Under the pieces are notes generated by a model. That model saw only the letters and a program-made list of their open reading frames with translations, ran no database searches and was not told the origin of the DNA. A stretch of DNA of 60,468 bases from Acidobacteriota bacterium (lineage in GTDB: Bacteria; Acidobacteriota; Terriglobia; Terriglobales; Acidobacteriaceae): positions 1-60,468 of the forward strand of contig JAJZDM010000009.1 in the NCBI GenBank assembly GCA_021806005.1. The letters run 5' to 3'. Of this stretch, positions 50,946 to 60,134 are shown one piece after another. A program made the position numbers and the translations under genes. Numbering within the stretch: the stretch's first letter is position 1; every line of letters begins with the position of its first letter.

Positions 50946-51743
50946 TTATCCATTCAATGCGCCGACCAGTACCTTTGGCCCGGTAGGCTGTGGCCTTCCT
51001 CCATACGGCTCCAGGGTCACCGCGAACGCTTTGGCCGTGACCCCATGCTGCAAATGCACCACCACTGCCTGGCTCTGTTGGTCCGCGGCAACCAGCCCCA
51101 GGCTCACTGGAGCTCCCGCCGAAGGCACCAGCCAGAGCTGGTAGCTCCGTTCGACCGGAGCAGGGGCCATCTCACCGGAGTAAACCACCACGCCCATCCT
51201 GGCGTTGAACAGAACATGCGCCTGTCCCGGCGCAGCTTCTGACTGCTGCAGCAACGCCACCTGCAGTGTATCCGGGGCCCCCACCACCGCGTTCATCGTC
51301 CGCAGGGTTTCGGCTTGGTGCGATGCCTGTGCCTGCGTACTGTAAATCTGCGCCTGCAGCGCCTTGATCTCCTGCCGCTGCCATTGATCCTTCTTCCAGA
51401 AGAAGCTCGCGGCGAAAGCAATGATCACCGTCGCGCAGGCAAATCCCAGCGCAAGGTTCAAACTCCACGATGTTCTTCGCGGCCGATCCTGTTTCATCTG
51501 CTTCGCACGTTCTGAGCTCTCCGTTCGAACCTTCCGCATCAGATCCGCCTTGACCGAAGCGGAGGGCGCGAGAGGAACCGCCGCCAGGCCCAGCAGCACA
51601 GAGAGCCGCCGCGCCTCGTCAAGCTGCTGCCGGCATTCGGCGCACGACAGTACATGGGCCTCAAAGGCCACTCTGTCTTCGCCGTCCAGCGCGCCGAACG
51701 CGTAAAGGTCGAAGTCTTCCGGATTGGGATGCCGTTCTGTCAT
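50946..51743 (-). CDS. Anti-sigma factor of the RskA type
   Basis: The 265-aa protein has a cytoplasmic zinc-finger anti-sigma domain (about 1-60) with the H-x3-C-x2-C motif in HVLSCAEC. A basic/polar linker follows, then a single transmembrane helix (about 96-115, LALGFACATVIIAFAASFFW). A periplasmic coiled segment (about 120-145) leads into the RskA-like C-terminal domain with VVVYSGEMAPAPVERSYQLW. Like RskA, it should hold its sigma factor at the membrane until regulated proteolysis releases it. Its ATG overlaps the sigma gene's stop (ATGA), so both are made together. Confidence 0.92.
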   Translation of the reverse strand: MTERHPNPEDFDLYAFGALDGEDRVAFEAHVLSCAECRQQLDEARRLSVLLGLAAVPLAPSASVKADLMRKVRTESSERAKQMKQDRPRRTSWSLNLALGFACATVIIAFAASFFWKKDQWQRQEIKALQAQIYSTQAQASHQAETLRTMNAVVGAPDTLQVALLQQSEAAPGQAHVLFNARMGVVVYSGEMAPAPVERSYQLWLVPSAGAPVSLGLVAADQQSQAVVVHLQHGVTAKAFAVTLEPYGGRPQPTGPKVLVGALNG

Positions 51744-52297
51744 CGCAATATCAGCTTCAGCGACTGCATCGCTGTACGAACCCTCGTCTTTACGGTCCCC
51801 AACGGGCTTCCCGTCCGGGATGCAATCTCCGTCTGTGTCAATCCTTCAAAGTAAGCCAGCTCCACAGCCTGCCTTTGTTCCTCCGGCAACTGATGGAGCG
51901 CTTCGGTCAATCGTCGTCTCAACTCCGTTCGTGACACCTCTTCTTCAATGTTGTGAGCGGAAACAAACGTATCCGCATAAAGACCCTCTTCCTCTTCCAA
52001 TATCTCCCGGCTGGCACGTCCGCGAAGCCGGGAGATCGCCCGGTTCCGGCCGCTCACCATCAACCATGCCGCAAGAGAACCACGAGTCGAATCGAACTGC
52101 GCGGCGCTGCGCCACAGTTGCAGAAATAGGTCCTGCAAAACCTCTTCGGCCATTTGCTTGTCACGGAGTATCCGCAGGATCACTCCAAAGAGCATCGCTG
52201 AGTACCGATCGTAGATCGTTGAAAGCGCAGCTTCATCGCCGGAGATCACTCTCTCGACAAGCGCGGCATCTGATGCGGGCTGCATGGGGGCAGTCAC
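51740..52297 (-). CDS. ECF sigma factor, SigK-like
   Basis: The 185-aa protein has region 2 (about 28-95, YSAMLFGVILRILRDKQMAEEVLQDLF, then RGSLAAWLMVSGRNRAISRLRGR) and region 4 (about 125-180, LPEEQRQAVELAYFEGLTQTEIASR). The LTQTEIASRTGSPLGTVKTRVRTAM helix-turn-helix is typical for ECF factors of the SigK/RpoE kind. The start is a GTG at 52297. It is co-translated with the RskA-like anti-sigma factor. A fasciclin gene is divergent from it, and in Mycobacterium the SigK targets MPT70 and MPT83 are also fasciclin-domain proteins. Confidence 0.93.
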   Translation of the reverse strand: MTAPMQPASDAALVERVISGDEAALSTIYDRYSAMLFGVILRILRDKQMAEEVLQDLFLQLWRSAAQFDSTRGSLAAWLMVSGRNRAISRLRGRASREILEEEEGLYADTFVSAHNIEEEVSRTELRRRLTEALHQLPEEQRQAVELAYFEGLTQTEIASRTGSPLGTVKTRVRTAMQSLKLILR

Positions 52298-52608
52298 GAG
52301 TCGGATCTCCGGCTATAAGGGAAGTACGCGAGAAAGAATCTCAACGGATTGATATCCAGGCAAATCCTTCGCTGCCGCCTTGGCTTCGCTCCTGCCAGGA
52401 AGCGCCAACTCTCTGAGAGCCTAACCGGATTCAGTGGCAATTGCAAGAAATCCGGCTCCATCCGCAGCACTCGCCTTCTCCGACCAATCCGATCCCCAGC
52501 CTCTACGCGTACAGCCACCAGAAACTCTGGCCCGGAGAACTTCTCTCAGGTTCACCACAAAATGAATCCGTTCGACACTCAAACGCTTTTACGAAAGGAC
52601 GTATCGCA
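52298..52608. promoter_or_regulatory. Divergent promoter region of the sigma factor and the fasciclin gene
   Basis: Both directions have the octamer AATCCGTT ahead of the start: on the minus strand at 52350-52343, 45 bases from the sigma GTG; on the plus strand at 52565-52572, 36 bases from the fasciclin ATG. A shared box would fit control of both by the same sigma factor. I cannot see a clear second box, so this is only a candidate. Confidence 0.3.
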
Positions 52609-53157
52609 ATGAAGAAACTTTTGAGCCTCCTGTGTGCGGTGGCAATGACCTTTGGCATCTCCAGTGCTCATGCGCAAAAGGACCCCATGGTTGGAGGAGC
52701 GGCTATGTATCCCTCCAAAAACATCGTTCAAAACGCGGTCGACTCCAGGGACCACACCACACTGGTCGCGGCTGTCAAAGCCGCCGGTCTCGTCGATACC
52801 CTCGAAGGTCCCGGGCCCTTCACCGTCTTCGCTCCAACCAATCAGGCCTTTGCGAAACTCCCTGCCGGAACAGTCAGCAACCTGCTCAAACCCGAGCACG
52901 TGAACCAGTTGAGGAAGATCCTCACCTACCACGTTGTTCCCGGCAGGATCACCACCAGGGACCTGCATAAGCGGATCAAGCAGGGCGGCGGAAAAGCTAC
53001 ACTCACAACCGTCGAGGGCGGAACACTTACAGCAACCATGTCCGGCGGACATTACGTGCTGACCGACGCCAAAGGGAACTCCGCCACCATCACCATTCCC
53101 AACGTCTATCAGTCGAATGGCATGATTCAGGTCATCGACGCCGTGCTGCTGCCGTAG
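52609..53157 (+). CDS. Secreted fasciclin-domain protein
   Basis: The 182-aa protein has a signal peptide (MKKLLSLLCAVAMTFGISSAHA) and one complete fasciclin (FAS1) domain (about 40-180). It contains DHTTLVAAVKAAGLVDTL, the signature GPFTVFAPTNQAFAKLP, RKILTYHVVPGRIT and a C-terminal NGMIQVIDAVLLP. FAS1 domains mediate adhesion or binding to polysaccharides. GAAAGGACG lies upstream of the ATG at 52609. Its position opposite to a SigK-like sigma gene suggests control by it. A strong hairpin (53173-53217) follows. Confidence 0.93.
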   Translation: MKKLLSLLCAVAMTFGISSAHAQKDPMVGGAAMYPSKNIVQNAVDSRDHTTLVAAVKAAGLVDTLEGPGPFTVFAPTNQAFAKLPAGTVSNLLKPEHVNQLRKILTYHVVPGRITTRDLHKRIKQGGGKATLTTVEGGTLTATMSGGHYVLTDAKGNSATITIPNVYQSNGMIQVIDAVLLP

Positions 53158-53172
53158 CGGAGGGCCGGGGCC

Positions 53173-53217
53173 AGCGAGTCCGGCTCTGCGCCCTGCAGGC
53201 GCTCAAGCCGGCTCGCT
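53173..53217 (+). terminator. Strong hairpin behind the fasciclin gene
   Basis: AGCGAGTCCGGCT (53173-53185) pairs with AGCCGGCTCGCT (53206-53217) with one bulge, and GCGCC (53188-53192) pairs with GGCGC (53198-53202) inside. It starts 15 bases after the stop. No T-run follows. Confidence 0.6.
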
Positions 53218-53400
53218 GCTCTCAGCACCTTCCACCGCCGCAACGCCGACATAGCAACGTTCCAGATCGGCCTCTCCAGCCTTCCCTTCAAAAACTCTGC
53301 TTCCGGACCAATCCGAAGACCGTGCCGGTTGCGTACTCCGTGTGAAACCACAAACTCTCTCCCTTCCCTCACCGGAACGGAGCCGAAATGAGGAGCTTGC

Positions 53401-54396
53401 ATGTCGACAGACAAGTTAATCAGGAATCTCGCCATCGCCAACGGAGTCAATCGCCGCTCCTTCCTCACCGGTGCAACCATGTTCGGCATCGGTGCCGTCT
53501 CCACGGCCATCGTTGACGGATGCAGCGGAGGAAGCTACATGATGAGCACCACACCCGTGTCGGCGGCGGCGTCCACGGATACGGCAACCAACATCCTCAC
53601 TGCAGCCCTCATCGCGGAGAGCCTTGCCATCACCACCTACTACACGGCTCTCTCCACGCAGGCGGTCATCACCGATTCCAATCTCGCCGGATCGGGCGGA
53701 ACTGCTCTCAACGTCAGCGCAAGCGGAAGTCAGGTGAACGTCGCCTACCTTCAGGGCGCGTTGCTCGAAGAGGTCTCCCACGCTCAAACCTTGCGCTCAC
53801 TTCTCGGATTGGCAACGGATGGAAGCGGAGACGCCGGCGCAGGCATTCCCCAGAGCTTCTACTTCCCCTCCGGAACCTTCGCATCGCTCAGCGGCTTCCT
53901 GCCGGTTCTCCTCGCCCTCGAAACTGCCTTCATCGGGGCTTACATGACCGCGGTGGAAGAGTTCGCCTCCATGGCAGCGGGTTTCAACGGCTTCAGCTCC
54001 ACCCAGGTAAATCCCGCATCCAGCGGCTCCAACCTCACCCAGGCCGACCTCATTCTCTATGCCAAGGTGGCATCGTCGATCCTCGGTGTCGAGTCCGAGC
54101 ATCGCGCGCTGGTGCGCGCCATACCCTCTGTTACCCTGGCGTCTCCAAACTACGGCACCATCAACCTGATTCCCGCAAACAACGTCAACTACGAGAGCTC
54201 TGACAGCTTCACCGGCCTGATCACAAGCGTAAGCGGAGACAGCACCACAACTGCCGCCGCCGCTCTGGGTCCGTTCATCTCTGCTGGAACCAACCCGGAT
54301 ATGGTGGCAACAGTCGCAGCGCAAGCCAACTTCTCTTCGGTGGTTACCGCCTCTGTCGCAGCCAACGTTACAGGAGGCATCCCCTCCGCCGAGTAG
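53401..54396 (+). CDS. Tat-exported diiron ferritin-like protein
   Basis: The 331-aa protein has a twin-arginine signal (NRRSFLTGATMFGIGAVSTA) ending near 'VDGCSGGS', possibly a lipidated Cys. Four helices (about 60-245) carry the diiron ligands E-x-x-H twice: IAESLAITTYY and LEEVSHAQTLR in the first half, LALETAFIGAYM and VESEHRALV in the second. This is the ferritin-like fold seen as Ferritin_2/DUF4439 family. The last 80 residues are Ser/Thr/Ala-rich. It may store iron or detoxify oxidants in the periplasm. It follows the fasciclin gene by 243 bases with a hairpin between, so it may have its own promoter. Confidence 0.88.
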   Translation: MSTDKLIRNLAIANGVNRRSFLTGATMFGIGAVSTAIVDGCSGGSYMMSTTPVSAAASTDTATNILTAALIAESLAITTYYTALSTQAVITDSNLAGSGGTALNVSASGSQVNVAYLQGALLEEVSHAQTLRSLLGLATDGSGDAGAGIPQSFYFPSGTFASLSGFLPVLLALETAFIGAYMTAVEEFASMAAGFNGFSSTQVNPASSGSNLTQADLILYAKVASSILGVESEHRALVRAIPSVTLASPNYGTINLIPANNVNYESSDSFTGLITSVSGDSTTTAAAALGPFISAGTNPDMVATVAAQANFSSVVTASVAANVTGGIPSAE

Positions 54397-54528: not shown

Positions 54529-55023
54529 TCAGCCCGCGCCCGTCGAAGCATCGCTCTCCATCCGACGTTCGGAGCCCCGAGCTTCAAAGCGCCTTCGCAA
54601 CTGCTCGGAACGGTAAGCGAAGATCCTCTCAATGTCAGGACGAACCAACCAGCGGTGTACGGCAAAATCAAAGGGAACGGCATACTCCACCCGGTCTCGC
54701 ACCCAGGTTCCACCGTCGCAGGCCTCGAACGTATGTCGATGAACCCACCTCTGGTAGGGGCCGCTAAGCTGCTCGTCCACAAAACAGTTCGGCGGCTCCC
54801 AAAGACTGATACGCGTGCGCCACCGGACGGGCCAACCATGGATGGCTAGTTTGTATTCGATCAATGCTCCCTTCCTCATCTCGACCGTTTCCGGGTTCAG
54901 GATCTTGAACTTCAACCAGTGCGGTGTGATCGTCTCCAGATTGGCCGCATCGGCAAAGAATGGAAACAACATCTCCGGCGCCACCGGCAACCATATCTCG
55001 CTTTGGAACTCTCGGATCTTCAT
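54529..55023 (-). CDS. SRPBCC-fold protein at the end of the carotenoid operon
   Basis: The 164-aa protein is of the START/polyketide cyclase-like (SRPBCC) superfamily: 'FQSEIWLPVAPEMLFPFFADAANLETITP' at the start, and 'RWVHRHTFEACDGGTWVRDRVEYAVPF' in the middle (positions about 85-110). Such proteins have a deep hydrophobic pocket. The ATG at 55023 has GGAG six bases upstream; the earlier ATG abuts that GGAG. It lies 51 bases behind the preceding gene. Its position implies a link to carotenoid or membrane lipid handling, but nothing in the sequence shows a reaction. It resembles the CPBP-like 'ligand-binding SRPBCC domain' group often found near cell-wall or lipid genes. Confidence 0.85.
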   Translation of the reverse strand: MKIREFQSEIWLPVAPEMLFPFFADAANLETITPHWLKFKILNPETVEMRKGALIEYKLAIHGWPVRWRTRISLWEPPNCFVDEQLSGPYQRWVHRHTFEACDGGTWVRDRVEYAVPFDFAVHRWLVRPDIERIFAYRSEQLRRRFEARGSERRMESDASTGAG

Positions 55024-55074
55024 CGTCATCTCCTGATCTCTGTTTCGGGTTTTCAAGTCTGTCGATCCCGGGCC

Positions 55075-55425
55075 TCACTTCGCTCCACCCTCTCTGTCCC
55101 CAACACCCCAGCCCAACCGTGCCGCCTCTTCGCTGCTCAGGCGCAGAAGATAGAAGAAGCCATCGGGACCATCGATCTCCTCCATCACGTCCCGCACATC
55201 AGATCCATGCGGCAGCAGCAGCGGATTGATGACCTCCATCATCTCCCACTCATCGGCAAAGATTCGCTCCATCGTCTCGCTCCGGAAGTTGCTCCGGGCG
55301 CTCCAGGGACGAATTCGCACCGCATAACCGCAACTCTCGCTCGGGCCGTCGCCGACGCACAGGATCTGCACCAGATACCGGCGTCGCCGCGTCACGCCAA
55401 TCGGCTTTTGAACCTGTCCTCTCAT
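55075..55425 (-). CDS. Unknown 116-aa protein in the carotenoid operon
   Basis: The start ATG at 55425 overlaps the stop of the acyltransferase gene (ATGA), so it is translationally coupled to the pigment genes. The N-terminus has a basic patch (GVTRRRRYLVQILCVGDG), then a region with RIRPWSARSNF, and an acidic C-terminal half (ADEWEMMEVINPLLLP, DVMEEIDGPDGFFYLLRLSSEEA). It is soluble, with no membrane segment, and I do not recognise its family. A longer open frame upstream in this frame is a shadow of the acyltransferase gene. Confidence 0.75.
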   Translation of the reverse strand: MRGQVQKPIGVTRRRRYLVQILCVGDGPSESCGYAVRIRPWSARSNFRSETMERIFADEWEMMEVINPLLLPHGSDVRDVMEEIDGPDGFFYLLRLSSEEAARLGWGVGDREGGAK

Positions 55426-55901
55426 CGGACACTCAGGGCACGCTGCCGGGATCGCGTTACACGTTCCAGCGTCATTCGGTTGTACCGCTGGGCGACGATG
55501 CAGGGCAGATTGGCAGAGAGCGCATAGACCGTCATCATCCCCCAGGCCCAGGGCGGATTCCAAAAGAAGAAGATCGGCAGGCAGAGAAGCATGCACCAAT
55601 GAGCCAGCTCCGCGCGCCGTGTCTCCAGCACAAACTGTGCAAGGTACGCCTGGTCCCGAGAGTTCAATCTCTTCTTCGCAAACCCTCCCATCCACGACGC
55701 CCCATCCGGCAGCCACAACTTCCACCTGCGCGCTCCCAGCCACTCCCGATAGATCTGCCCCCCTCGCTCCCACCTGCGCGGAGCCGTCATCCAATCCTCC
55801 TCCGCAAAGAGCCGCGCCGGAAGGCGCACCGCAACAAAGGAGATGGAAAGTTGAATCACCGGCCAACCCAGAAGGTTGCCCATCCAGATCCATACCGTCA
55901 T
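55422..55901 (-). CDS. crtO: CrtO-like glycosyl-diaponeurosporenoate acyltransferase
   Basis: The 159-aa protein has two hydrophobic segments (about 3-25 and 105-135) and the family motifs: APRRWERGGQIYREWLGARRWKLWLPDG (positions about 40-68), then ETRRAELAHW (about 92-101), the NPPWAW turn and NLPCIVAQRYNR (about 131-142). In Staphylococcus aureus CrtO attaches a C15 acyl chain to the glycosylated C30 carotenoid acid, the last step to staphyloxanthin. Here it follows the crtQ-like gene in an ATGA overlap (start at 55901), which supports the same role. The acyl chain may differ. Confidence 0.87.
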   Translation of the reverse strand: MTVWIWMGNLLGWPVIQLSISFVAVRLPARLFAEEDWMTAPRRWERGGQIYREWLGARRWKLWLPDGASWMGGFAKKRLNSRDQAYLAQFVLETRRAELAHWCMLLCLPIFFFWNPPWAWGMMTVYALSANLPCIVAQRYNRMTLERVTRSRQRALSVR

Positions 55902-56977
55902 ACCTCGCGTCCCCTCCACGTGGCCTTGCCACCCAGAGCGCGCCGCAACGCCGTGCGCCCAAACAGAAAACAGAAGTAAAACAGTGGCAACGGATAGAGC
56001 AGACAGGCCCACACTCGATAGTTACCCAGCCGATGCGTCATCCAGGCGATCTGCAGGCTCAAGGCAACATAGACCAGGGCCACGCTCACACGGCTATCGT
56101 TGCCGGAGTTTGCCAGCAACAGCACGGTCGACCAGAGCACGGAGATCCACCCAACCGCCAGCCCAAGAACCACACCTCCGGAGTCCACCGCGCCCTGCAG
56201 AAGAGCCTTGCCCCAACTCTCCGTCATCTGCTGAAAGCCCTCTGGAAACATCCGCATCTGCAGCGTTCCTTCACCTCCAAGACACACCAGCTTCGCGCCG
56301 CACGCACCCAGCCGATCCGCCCAGCGCAGATTCTCCAGCACCACCCCGGGAACCGCCGCGTGACCTCCCGCGGCAAAATAAACGTCCCTCGAGAGCAACA
56401 GCGACTGACCAAAGAGCCTTGCCGGGGCAATCGGAGTGAACCCACCCGCACCCGCAGCCATCAAGATATGGAAGAAGATCGAGAACTGTTCATAAGCTCC
56501 CTCCATGGCGTGGTAGGGCAGCACCGATAGAACCAGATGGCGCACCTGCTCCTGTTCCTTTGACCAGAAGGAGATCAGCCGTTCCAATCCGCCGGGCAAA
56601 AACCATGTATCCGCATCCAGAAACAGAAACGCCTCGCCTCGGGCACTCTGTGCCCCCTGGTAGCAGGCCCAGGACTTCCCCGTCCATCCCGCGGGCCGCT
56701 CTCCCGGCACAAGCACTCGAGCCCCCAGGCTCCTCGCCACCACAGCCGTCCCGTCCGTCGAACCGTCATCCACCACCAGCACCTCCGCTGGCCGGATCCT
56801 CGAGCCACCAATCGATCTCAGGAGCCGCGGCAGATTCTCCTCCTCGTCCCGCGCGGGGATGATGATAGAGACACTCTCCGTCCTGCACGGTCCTTCCGGC
56901 GGACAGGTGGGGATCCGCCAGATCAGAAGCAGACCGGCAGCCACTCCCAGCACCCCCGGCAGAACCGCCGGCATCAT
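55898..56977 (-). CDS. crtQ: CrtQ-like 4,4'-diaponeurosporenoate glycosyltransferase
   Basis: The 359-aa protein is a GT2-type membrane glycosyltransferase. It has an N-terminal helix, SVSIIIPARDEEENLPRLL (about 36-55), 'VLVVDDGSTDGTAVV' (about 67-80), the D-x-D-like FLFLDADTWF (about 115), then a conserved end of the catalytic domain, followed by three C-terminal hydrophobic helices (about 265-345). CrtQ puts glucose on the carotenoid acid at the membrane. Its start overlaps the upstream CrtP-like gene's stop (ATGA) and its stop overlaps the CrtO-like start. That chain and the domain content make CrtQ the best match. Confidence 0.88.
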   Translation of the reverse strand: MMPAVLPGVLGVAAGLLLIWRIPTCPPEGPCRTESVSIIIPARDEEENLPRLLRSIGGSRIRPAEVLVVDDGSTDGTAVVARSLGARVLVPGERPAGWTGKSWACYQGAQSARGEAFLFLDADTWFLPGGLERLISFWSKEQEQVRHLVLSVLPYHAMEGAYEQFSIFFHILMAAGAGGFTPIAPARLFGQSLLLSRDVYFAAGGHAAVPGVVLENLRWADRLGACGAKLVCLGGEGTLQMRMFPEGFQQMTESWGKALLQGAVDSGGVVLGLAVGWISVLWSTVLLLANSGNDSRVSVALVYVALSLQIAWMTHRLGNYRVWACLLYPLPLFYFCFLFGRTALRRALGGKATWRGREV

Positions 56978-58491
56978 TGGGCCTCCTTCGCATCTTGCTC
57001 AGCAATCATCCGCGCCACATGCTGGCCGCTCAATGTCACCATGGGCATACCCCCTCCCGGATTCGTGCTGCCGCCCACAAAAAACAGATTGCGGAACTGT
57101 CCGCTCTGTTTCGGTGCCTTGAACGCAAAGTTGCTCCGCCGGTCGCAGACCACCCCGTAGATCGAGCCGCGGTTGGAACCATAGCGCGCCTCAATGTCGA
57201 ACGGCGTCCAGAAGTCTTCCACCACAATATGTCGGCGCAGATTGGGCAGCCCCATCCGCTCCAGCTTGTCCAGACAGATCTCCTTCAGCGCCACGTAGTC
57301 CTCGCGGGTCGTCGGCCGGCGCTCGTCCAGCGCCGGAATATGCGGCAGAATCTTGATATTGTCACAGCCCGCTGGAGCCTGCGACCGGTCCGTCCGCGTC
57401 GGTGCCACCACATACAGCGTGGGGTCGTCCGGCAGTCTCCCGTCCCGAAACACGCGCCGGAAGTGCCCGTGCAGGTCCCTTGAATAGAAGAAATTATGAT
57501 GCGCAAGCTGCGGATACACGCGATTCAGACCCAGGTGAAGCACAATTCCGGAGCACGAAGGCTTGAAGCGGCGCAGCTTCTTCATCGTCGCCGCAGGCGC
57601 CCCCAGCAGTTTCTGCATCGCCGGAACCACCTCCATGTTGGACACCACATAATCAGCCGCAAAAAAACCGGACCTGCCATCCGAATCGACCGTCTGCACC
57701 CCGGTTACCACTCCGTCCGCCTGACCGATCCTCACCACCTCCTGGCCCGGCAACAGGGCGGCCCCACTCTCCTCCAGACGGCGGCGAAAGGCCCGCGCCA
57801 GCTCATACAGACCACCCGAGACGTACCACAACCCGAACTCCATCTGGATGTTCGGCATCAGGTTCATGAACGCCGGCGCATCCAGCGCGCTCGATCCCAC
57901 ATACTTGATGAAGTACTCGAAGATATCGCGCAGGTACGGATTGCTCAACCGCCGCTGAATACTGCCCGACATCGAGCGCAGATAGTCAAGATCGCGCGCA
58001 TCCTTCCAACCATAAAAGCGGAGAAACTCACCAAACGTATCCAGCCCGTGGCGCAAATACCCGCGCTCGACTACCTCGTACTGCCGGCGAGAGTAGGCAA
58101 GAAACGCCTCGTACTGGCGAACCGTCTCCGCGCCAAACCGCCCCAACTCCGCACGCATCTTCTCCTGGTCTTCCCACAGATCCAACACCGTTCCGTCTTC
58201 AAAAAAGTTGCGCCACTGCGGATCGACACGCCGCAGCGTGATGTAGTCCTCCAGCTTACGTCCCTCGCCCTCAAAGATCGGCCGGAAGATCTGCGGCAGG
58301 GTGAAGATCGACGGGCCAAGATCGAAACGGAATCCCTCCGTCTCCAGCAGATTCAGCTTGCCGCCGGCATGCGCATTCTTCTCCAGCACGGTCACCTGAA
58401 ATCCGCTGCGCGCAAGCAGGATCGCTGCCGACATGCCGCCCAGTCCTGCTCCGATCACGACCACTCGCTTCTTCTTTGCAACCTGGCTCAT
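56974..58491 (-). CDS. crtP: CrtP/CrtN-family carotenoid desaturase or oxidase
   Basis: The 505-aa protein has the FAD-binding start VVVIGAGLGGMSAAILLARSG and EKNAHAGGKLNLLETEGFRFDLGPS (positions about 10-60), and the family's FAD end FFVGGSTNPGGGMPMVTLSG (about 470-490). Carotenoid desaturases and the CrtP oxidase share this fold, and the pair of such genes here resembles CrtN plus CrtP. Staphylococcal CrtP makes the terminal carboxylic acid. The ATG at 58491 gives the natural N-terminus. It is 101 bases behind the first desaturase gene and overlaps the crtQ-like gene. Which of the two genes is CrtN and which CrtP cannot be settled without alignment. Confidence 0.85.
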   Translation of the reverse strand: MSQVAKKKRVVVIGAGLGGMSAAILLARSGFQVTVLEKNAHAGGKLNLLETEGFRFDLGPSIFTLPQIFRPIFEGEGRKLEDYITLRRVDPQWRNFFEDGTVLDLWEDQEKMRAELGRFGAETVRQYEAFLAYSRRQYEVVERGYLRHGLDTFGEFLRFYGWKDARDLDYLRSMSGSIQRRLSNPYLRDIFEYFIKYVGSSALDAPAFMNLMPNIQMEFGLWYVSGGLYELARAFRRRLEESGAALLPGQEVVRIGQADGVVTGVQTVDSDGRSGFFAADYVVSNMEVVPAMQKLLGAPAATMKKLRRFKPSCSGIVLHLGLNRVYPQLAHHNFFYSRDLHGHFRRVFRDGRLPDDPTLYVVAPTRTDRSQAPAGCDNIKILPHIPALDERRPTTREDYVALKEICLDKLERMGLPNLRRHIVVEDFWTPFDIEARYGSNRGSIYGVVCDRRSNFAFKAPKQSGQFRNLFFVGGSTNPGGGMPMVTLSGQHVARMIAEQDAKEAQ

Positions 58492-58592
58492 ACGCCTCAC
58501 ACCATGGTGATTGTGATCCGCTCCGGCTGAGCGCCCATGCGAAAGGAACGCTCCCATTCCCGCGCGGGAATGCCATTCTCCCCCCGGGGTCT

Positions 58593-60134
58593 TCAAACGC
58601 ATGCCAACTCCAACGGTCTTGCCGCCGGATGAGCAACCTCATGCCTCTGGCAGATCAGGTTGGCGGAGATGCGCGCCGACTCGAAGATCGTCGGCAAACC
58701 GCTGCCCGGATGCGTGCCTCCGCCCACCAGGTAGCAGTTCTCAAACATCTCAAATCGGTTGTGCGGACGCAGCAAGAGCATCTGGTCCCAGCTATGCGCC
58801 ATGTTGAAGGTAGCGCCCAGAAAGACCGAATATCGGTTCTCCCAATCCTCCGGAGTCACGATCATCTCCTGCTGAATGTGCGGCGTCACATCGCCAAAAG
58901 GAGTTCGCTCGCGCAGAATGCGAAGGACGCGCTCCCGCATCTCCTGCTTCTGCTCCTGCCAGTCGATCCCGCTTCGGTTGTTGGCCACCGGCACCAGAAT
59001 GTAGAGTGCGGAGTGACCTGGAGGCGCGCCGGATGGATCGGTCCTGCAGGAGTTGCGGATATACACCGACATCTCATCCGGACTGTCGTGGCCCTGCGCA
59101 ATAGCCTCAATATTCTTCCTGTAGTCACGCGCAAAGACGATCGTGTGGTGCTCGGCATCATACGTCCTGTCCAGCCCCAGGTACATCATGAAGGTCGAGC
59201 AGGAGAACTTCCGCTTGCGCAGCTTCTCCGGCTGGTATCTTCCCAGGCTCTGCGGGTCAAAGAGTGTGGCCATGGCGTGCCCGAAGTCGGCATTCAGAAT
59301 CACATCATCGCAGTAAATCTTTTCACCACTCGCCAGTTCCACCCCTTTGGCTCGCCGGCCATCCACAAGCACGCGAGCCACCGGCGCCGAGGTGTGAATC
59401 TCCGCACCCTCGTCGAGAGCCACCTCTGCCAGCGCCTGCGTAATCCGGTTCAGCCCGCCCATCACGTGGTAGACCCCGTGCGCGTGTTCGGTGTAAGGAA
59501 TCATCGTGAACAGCCCCGGACAATCCCACGGCGACATGCCCAGATATTTGGACTGAAAGGTGAACGCCAGGCGCAACTCCTCGGAGCGGAAGTAGTCGCC
59601 CAGAACGTCGTATAGAGACCTGCCGGGAGCGATATGCGGAATCGTGGCCAGCAGACTGGGGCTCATCATGCTCGCCAGCGAGCCGTACGGCTTCTGCAGG
59701 CAGGGATAGAGTTTCTCAAACCGCTGGCTCTCACGCGCCAGAAAGCGATCCAGGTTATCGCCCTCCCCTGGAAAATGCCTCTCGATCTCCCGCTTCATCT
59801 CCTCCGGGTCGGAGCGGACCACCATGGTCTTGTCCGCAAACTTCAGCGCATACATGGGGTCGAGCTTTCGGAACTGGAGATAATCGCTCGACCGTCTTCC
59901 TCCCTCCGCGAACAGTTCGTCCAGCAGAAACTTCATCATCAGGAAGGTAGGTCCAAGGTCAAAACGATAATCTCCAAGACGCACCTCGGCATTCCGCCCT
60001 CCCACCACATCCTGCTTTTCAAAGACCTGCACCTGGAATCCTCGCTGCGCCAGCAGCATGGCCGCGGCCAGCCCACCCGGTCCCGCGCCAACGATCACAA
60101 TCTTCTTCTTGTTGCCCTTTGCAACGTTGCCCAT
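58593..60134 (-). CDS. Phytoene/diapophytoene desaturase (CrtI/CrtN family)
   Basis: The 513-aa protein has the FAD dinucleotide motif IVIVGAGPGGLAAAMLLAQRG and EKQDVVGGRNAEVRLGDYRFDLGPT (about 35-60), 'GVYHVMGGLNRITQALAE' (about 230) and the C-terminal CYLVGGGTHPGSGLPTIFESA (about 465-485). It is the CrtI/CrtN type that introduces double bonds into phytoene or diapophytoene. It is the first gene of the carotenoid operon, 168 bases behind a cupin-domain gene on the same strand. The crtM-type synthase expected in this pathway is not within the window, so the substrate is supplied elsewhere. Confidence 0.92.
   Translation of the reverse strand: MGNVAKGNKKKIVIVGAGPGGLAAAMLLAQRGFQVQVFEKQDVVGGRNAEVRLGDYRFDLGPTFLMMKFLLDELFAEGGRRSSDYLQFRKLDPMYALKFADKTMVVRSDPEEMKREIERHFPGEGDNLDRFLARESQRFEKLYPCLQKPYGSLASMMSPSLLATIPHIAPGRSLYDVLGDYFRSEELRLAFTFQSKYLGMSPWDCPGLFTMIPYTEHAHGVYHVMGGLNRITQALAEVALDEGAEIHTSAPVARVLVDGRRAKGVELASGEKIYCDDVILNADFGHAMATLFDPQSLGRYQPEKLRKRKFSCSTFMMYLGLDRTYDAEHHTIVFARDYRKNIEAIAQGHDSPDEMSVYIRNSCRTDPSGAPPGHSALYILVPVANNRSGIDWQEQKQEMRERVLRILRERTPFGDVTPHIQQEMIVTPEDWENRYSVFLGATFNMAHSWDQMLLLRPHNRFEMFENCYLVGGGTHPGSGLPTIFESARISANLICQRHEVAHPAARPLELACV

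Follow-up and report, generated by a model that had tools for sequence, protein, structure and literature searches.

The stretch between positions 54529 and 60134 of a contig from a soil member of the Acidobacteriaceae raises the question of how a C30 carotenoid operon of the staphyloxanthin type obtains its substrate when it holds no synthase gene, and what two additional genes at its end contribute. The window, i.e. the whole stretch of DNA that was analysed, is the entire contig C139 with 60,468 bp and belongs to a genome of 4.16 Mb (97.4% complete). The coordinates 54529-60134 were confirmed; the whole operon lies on the minus strand with all its reading frames open, and the order from 60134 to 54529 is CrtN, CrtP, a CrtQ-like glycosyltransferase, CrtO, a 116-residue protein denoted U116 and a SRPBCC protein. 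On the crtN side, 334 bp separate the operon start from the contig end. The probable product of the operon is a squalene-derived carotenoid that bears a sugar and an acyl group. The pathway itself and the squalene route are already known; new is the accessory part, namely an orphan family bound to CrtO, a SRPBCC protein that joined later and the loss of an AldH-DUF2141 protein. The retrieved portions of the literature on C30 carotenoids or staphyloxanthin in Acidobacteria, on Edaphobacter carotenoid clusters and on SRPBCC proteins with C30 carotenoids or photolyase hold no description of this operon, and the nameless U116 lies outside their scope.

The crtOPQMN-type operon on the Staphylococcus equorum plasmid NZ_CP013716 served as reference; its names CrtN, CrtP, CrtQ and CrtM were assigned here by gene order and products, the record naming only the acyltransferase. 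The gene at 60134-58593 (513 aa), which opens the operon within the limits of the contig, matches TIGR02734 with 451.7 bits (cut-off for the CrtN/CrtP type 238.1 bits) and is closer to S. equorum CrtN (28.3%, E 3e-78) than to CrtP (25.8%, E 3e-56); it shares 44.9% identity with the first crtI of the Azospirillum operon. The second desaturase-type gene (56974-58491, 367.6 bits with the same model, 505 aa from the likely start) is assigned as the CrtP-type oxidase with 45.4% identity to S. equorum CrtP compared to 25.3% to CrtN. It is followed by a family-2 glycosyltransferase of the CrtQ type (55898-56977, 359 aa, PF00535 E 5.7e-22), which is 27.5% identical to S. equorum CrtQ (E 3e-43) and contains three hydrophobic segments, and by CrtO, a glycosyl-4,4'-diaponeurosporenoate acyltransferase of 159 aa (55422-55901, PF18927 E 7.8e-30, 31.9% identity to S. 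equorum CrtO). No hydrophobic segment over threshold is found in CrtO, so that its membrane location is at most putative, a point against the explanation favoured below. The CrtN and CrtP types are accordingly grouped with a glycosyltransferase and an acyltransferase, the arrangement by which the operon is recognised, and the predicted pigment enzymes are borne out by the family matches and the S. equorum comparison; the two added genes, for the 116-aa and the SRPBCC protein, were predicted correctly as well. The overlaps between the genes were predicted correctly for CrtP/CrtQ, CrtQ/CrtO and CrtO/U116, each of 4 nt, and incorrectly for crtN/crtP, which are separated by a spacer of 101 nt.

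Within the family to which the window belongs, PF18927 is found in 39 of 398 genomes (38 over the cut-off). The operon is present in 30 of these 39, amounting to 31 loci, with one genome harboring two; G325 and the second G392 locus, both cut by contig ends, entered the count through CrtO, G325 additionally through U116 and SRPBCC. For the remaining nine CrtO genomes, no operon gene was detected in the fetched 7-16.5 kb (L066, L067, L068, L161, L163-L167).

No synthase gene is located in the window operon as far as the contig extends, and genome-wide exactly two genes match PF00494, adjacent to each other on contig C179. The first is HpnC (301 bits, cut-off 250), and the second is best matched by the HpnD model with 230.2 bits, which is below its cut-off of 278.6. 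HpnE adjoins the pair (399 bits, cut-off 283), and a squalene-hopene cyclase is encoded on contig C140. HpnC and HpnD share 21.5% and 29.4% identity, respectively, with the S. equorum synthase, while both are best matched by the HpnC/HpnD models. Since the only PF00494 genes found are HpnC and HpnD, beside HpnE, squalene is the likely precursor of the pigment as judged from gene content. The original prediction of an operon without synthase that draws its substrate from squalene via HpnCDE is therefore supported, and a search of the genome for hpnCDE or crtM returned the former on C179 and no CrtM. A staphyloxanthin operon with a hidden CrtM was considered and rejected, as no third PF00494 gene was found in the genome, a gene past the contig end being invisible to this search. 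Two PF00494 matches in tandem, and exactly two, are present in 25 of the 30 operon genomes; three matches occur in G226 (one of them short) and G392, and none in G301, G325 and G002, which are 67-84% complete. In G122 one gene of the pair has an internal stop. The typing as HpnC and HpnD covers the pair of the window genome only. No HpnC/HpnD-like match was obtained at E 1e-3 in the 43 fetched loci of the crt survey. As a side observation, a gene in the hpnCDE cluster (L070, 12055-13302), by eye similar to an alcohol dehydrogenase, shares 4 nt with the beginning of hpnC. According to the accessible parts of the respective papers, the squalene route with hpnCDE and crtNPOQ has been published for Azospirillum (PMC13274349), and the squalene route together with the glycosyl- and acyltransferase steps for Methylobacterium (PMC10448405).

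The spacer between crtN and crtP points to the history of the operon. The likely start of crtP, placed by the homologue in G116, is ATG 58491, 101 nt past the crtN stop, and an overlap of the two genes was rejected on the basis of this start and spacer. They do not overlap because the window operon keeps the last 16 codons of a DUF2141 gene as a scar: these codons and the stop (58497-58547, minus strand) match the end of the G116 DUF2141 gene both by blastn and in reading frame. Among 29 operon loci, AldH and DUF2141 are both situated between crtN and crtP in 20, AldH only in five, DUF2141 only in two and neither in one, the window; the spacer of G235 is cut. In six loci that were read through (G064, G017, G002, G122, G117 and G355) AldH and DUF2141 form one reading frame, in which Pfam recognises both domains for G064 and G117, and in G299 no frame is open across the whole stretch. 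A hydrophobic segment lies between the two domains in four of the five fusions tested, with none over threshold in G117. The loci L058, L059, L060, L063, L064 and L143 of relatives show AldH joined to DUF2141 at this place. Elsewhere in the window genome there are seven AldH matches with 28-35% identity to the G064 AldH, each a candidate for forming the acid, and a single DUF2141-like match (37%); a second DUF2141 is also present in the relatives G064 and G116. As AldH was lost from the window operon, the acid for CrtQ must come from another enzyme. The spacer left by the AldH-DUF2141 loss harbors a terminator-like inverted repeat at 58570-58551, because of which a single transcript across the operon is not certain. 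Terminator-like sites number 13 compared to 4.5 expected, and a scan for consensus promoters is near chance (3 compared to 1.6).

A tree of 29 loci was calculated from CrtN, CrtP, CrtQ and CrtO without an outgroup, G325 and the second G392 locus being too short for inclusion. The U116 loci group in one branch (support 100/100) together with G116, whose contig stops 47 nt after CrtO. Nested therein, four of the five SRPBCC loci, i.e. those contained in the tree, group with G116 (100/98) and comprise two genera, and G116, G301 and the window (G000), all devoid of AldH, constitute a further branch (100/99). This topology suggests the order U116 gain, SRPBCC gain, AldH loss and DUF2141 loss, as read from a tree without outgroup. 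The eight loci of the window's genus are scattered over the tree instead of forming a single clade (AU test p 3e-78); hence the operon either moved between lineages or was lost many times. On the stem branch where U116 appears, CrtQ accumulated 0.52 changes per site, compared to 0.08 for CrtO, 0.05 for CrtP and 0.11 for CrtN. Resampled stem lengths are 0.29-0.72 for CrtQ and 0.03-0.17 for CrtO; expressed as share of tree length in 20 resamplings, the CrtQ stem (0.020-0.048) overlaps with that of CrtN (0.014-0.031). The long CrtQ stem hints at a change at the glycosylation step. Fixed differences between operons with and without U116 number three in CrtQ, two in CrtN, one in CrtP and zero in CrtO, and because these counts are low in all four proteins they do not back the lead of CrtQ.

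U116 is encoded at 55075-55425 on the minus strand, where its start codon lies in a 4-nt overlap with the crtO stop, and gives no match over cut-off in Pfam, NCBIfam or the PDB sequences. A profile built from four sequences, all of them among the strong matches reported here, finds 18 of the 398 genomes, 15 of them, including that of the window, strongly (E 4.1e-31 or better). All 15 strong matches are in CrtO genomes and are positioned directly after CrtO. If 15 genomes were drawn at random, the probability of all of them lying among the 39 would be 4e-17, a figure that overstates independence since the 15 share descent. A 4-nt overlap of an in-frame start with the crtO stop is present in 14 of the 15 loci, the exception being G002. 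Purifying selection on U116 (pN/pS 0.27-0.43 in five loci) is about as strong as on CrtO (0.21-0.34), and a chance reading frame is ruled out by this together with the 15 strong matches. Three parts of the sequence are conserved: basic residues ahead of the first strand, a helix plus loop bearing the pattern DE..L...NPLLP.GSDVR, and L..E.A..LGW at the C-terminus. The structure model is weak (pLDDT 65.7), and the best fold match has a Z of 4.4, which is not significant, the second comparison having re-aligned Foldseek's own candidates. Named strains, Edaphobacter lichenicola M8UP30 among them, also carry the protein; a scan of genome contigs with two peptide patterns yielded four loci, of which L087 and L089 belong to named strains and the other two to metagenome bins. 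At the level of the phylum, a wider profile matches four of 297 genomes, all in the family of the window. Of the 16 remaining operon loci, 14 have no U116 within the 1.5 kb present after CrtO, and G116 and G392 are cut by the contig end. These 14 loci retain CrtO, and CrtQ is also seen in 13 of them; U116 is therefore not needed for the pathway as such. Conservation with crtO, as originally predicted, is thus confirmed for the 116-aa gene in 15 loci of one branch; its absence from related operons is not observed within this branch and applies to the 14 other loci.

The SRPBCC protein of 166 aa (54529-55029, minus strand, start ATG 55023 according to homologues) matches PF03364 with 44.1 bits (cut-off 23.4, E 3.1e-11), and a single-sequence structure model is useless for confirming the fold (pLDDT 41.5). 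In five of the 15 loci the protein comes after U116. Besides the window these are G301 and G325, from the window's genus, and G299 and G355, from a second genus; these four proteins are 71-80% identical to that of the window, and pN/pS among the five is 0.10-0.27. It is absent from nine of the ten other U116 loci, in which at least 3.9 kb after U116 are available; G002 ends about 0.5 kb after U116. The expectation that this gene, too, is conserved with crtO is consequently supported in part, by five loci. SRPBCC proteins are widespread, with a match in 67 of the 150 Acidobacteriaceae genomes searched, and 15 stretches around the best relatives outside the operon (38-54%, one 31-35%) contain no CrtO, CrtQ or U116 match, so that the function of the protein is not pigment-specific by descent. 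No SRPBCC match was found in the plasmids searched. Next to the operon, at 50946-54396, the window contains genes for a RskA-type anti-sigma factor, an ECF sigma factor, a fasciclin and a ferritin-like protein.

The best explanation, held with moderate confidence from comparison of genes and genomes, is a squalene-route C30 operon of Acidobacteriaceae in which U116 would act as a tailoring helper and SRPBCC as a ligand carrier. HpnC, HpnD and HpnE, encoded elsewhere, would convert farnesyl diphosphate to squalene; CrtN would desaturate squalene and CrtP would oxidise the terminal methyl group; the acid would be formed by a dehydrogenase encoded outside the operon, assumed in place of the lost operon copy, and CrtQ would add a sugar to this acid before acylation by CrtO, as their homology suggests. 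U116 is most likely a soluble helper of this CrtQ-CrtO tailoring, made in step with CrtO, a role proposed because of its strict place after CrtO and the start/stop overlap. SRPBCC, a later addition, most likely takes up squalene, a pathway intermediate or the final pigment in its pocket and hands it on; the family membership is what suggests a hydrophobic cargo. In a far-reaching version, U116 would represent a new family that serves CrtQ and CrtO exclusively and joins them in a sugar-and-acyl transfer complex at the membrane, SRPBCC would be a soluble carrier dedicated to the C30 carotenoid or its precursor, and both would belong to a pigment-delivery module, built stepwise, owing to which the lineage could dispense with the AldH-DUF2141 protein; this version appears improbable. 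To our knowledge, the hand-over of glycosylated, acylated C30 pigments between enzymes has not been described; the small CrtO-linked family and the probable carrier acquired after it are of interest in this respect.

Three other readings of the locus have to be considered. U116 could be a regulator or stability factor, for example in feedback on the operon or on squalene flux, instead of a tailoring part. Its small size, the lack of any hydrophobic segment over threshold, its absence from operons that still carry the enzymes and the weak, partial relatives in G142, G160 and G175 (L069, L168, L169), where CrtO was not found, would all be compatible with this. Nevertheless, the invariable position behind crtO and the nearly invariable stop overlap suit a fixed stoichiometry with CrtO better than regulation, and no family match over a cut-off speaks for it, which renders a regulatory U116 doubtful.

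Likewise, SRPBCC could be a mere neighbour of the pigment genes that belongs to the adjacent ECF sigma/anti-sigma/fasciclin cluster. In G017 (L080) a 46% relative indeed adjoins relatives of the window's RskA (37%), ECF (51%) and fasciclin (72%) proteins far from crtO, as found by comparison with the window genes at 50946-53157; the ferritin-like protein of the window has no match in that cluster at E 1e-3, and a ferritin-like gene is recognised there by eye only. The distance to U116 also varies, from 45 or 51 nt in the window through 80-95 nt (G355, G299) to roughly 270 nt (G301, G325). Against mere vicinity, the close relatives in G301, G325, G299 and G355 follow U116 with no cluster genes in the 5, 3, 1.2 and 6 kb, respectively, after SRPBCC, and the neighbour reading is therefore rather unlikely. 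Finally, loss of AldH might have broken or changed the pathway, leading to an aldehyde or another end product with CrtQ and CrtO in decay. The operons of G000, G116 and G301 lack AldH, that of G000 DUF2141 as well, and the best AldH elsewhere in the genome reaches only 35% identity to that of G064. However, the frames of the window are open, CrtO is under purifying selection between G000, G301 and G325 (pN/pS 0.21-0.33), and AldH is, in the part of the Methylobacterium paper available, often unclustered with the other genes (PMC10448405); this reading is accordingly very unlikely. Hence the squalene-route operon with a tailoring helper and a putative carrier remains the preferred reading.

In comparison to known systems, the window shares the CrtN, CrtP, CrtQ and CrtO types with the Staphylococcus operon, CrtP being the closest, whereas the latter contains its own synthase and differs in gene order; the S. 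equorum plasmid stretches fetched give no significant match to U116 or SRPBCC. Azospirillum brasilense (crtNPOQ) and Methylobacterium extorquens, as far as covered by the accessible parts of the sources, likewise combine two CrtI-type genes with a glycosyltransferase and an acyltransferase, separately from hpnCDE, but their acyltransferase is of the lysophospholipid type and not a CrtO. The Azospirillum stretch is again devoid of significant U116 or SRPBCC matches. In the Azospirillum record AldH and DUF2141 are found beside the pigment genes, with DUF2141 as a separate gene.

We know of no function for DUF2141. The A. brasilense pigment operon ends in a DUF2141 gene (L175, 15103-15570), so that the domain accompanies C30 carotenoid genes in two phyla. 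In Sphingomonadales, according to the portions consulted of two reports, DUF2141 adjoins the carotenoid gene crtG (PMC5989583, PMC9241875), there in the context of C40 carotenoids, whereas in Acidobacteriaceae it is often joined to AldH and has been lost from the window operon. The AldH-DUF2141 protein thus ties DUF2141 to carotenoids in the Acidobacteriaceae, as Azospirillum and Sphingomonadales do elsewhere.
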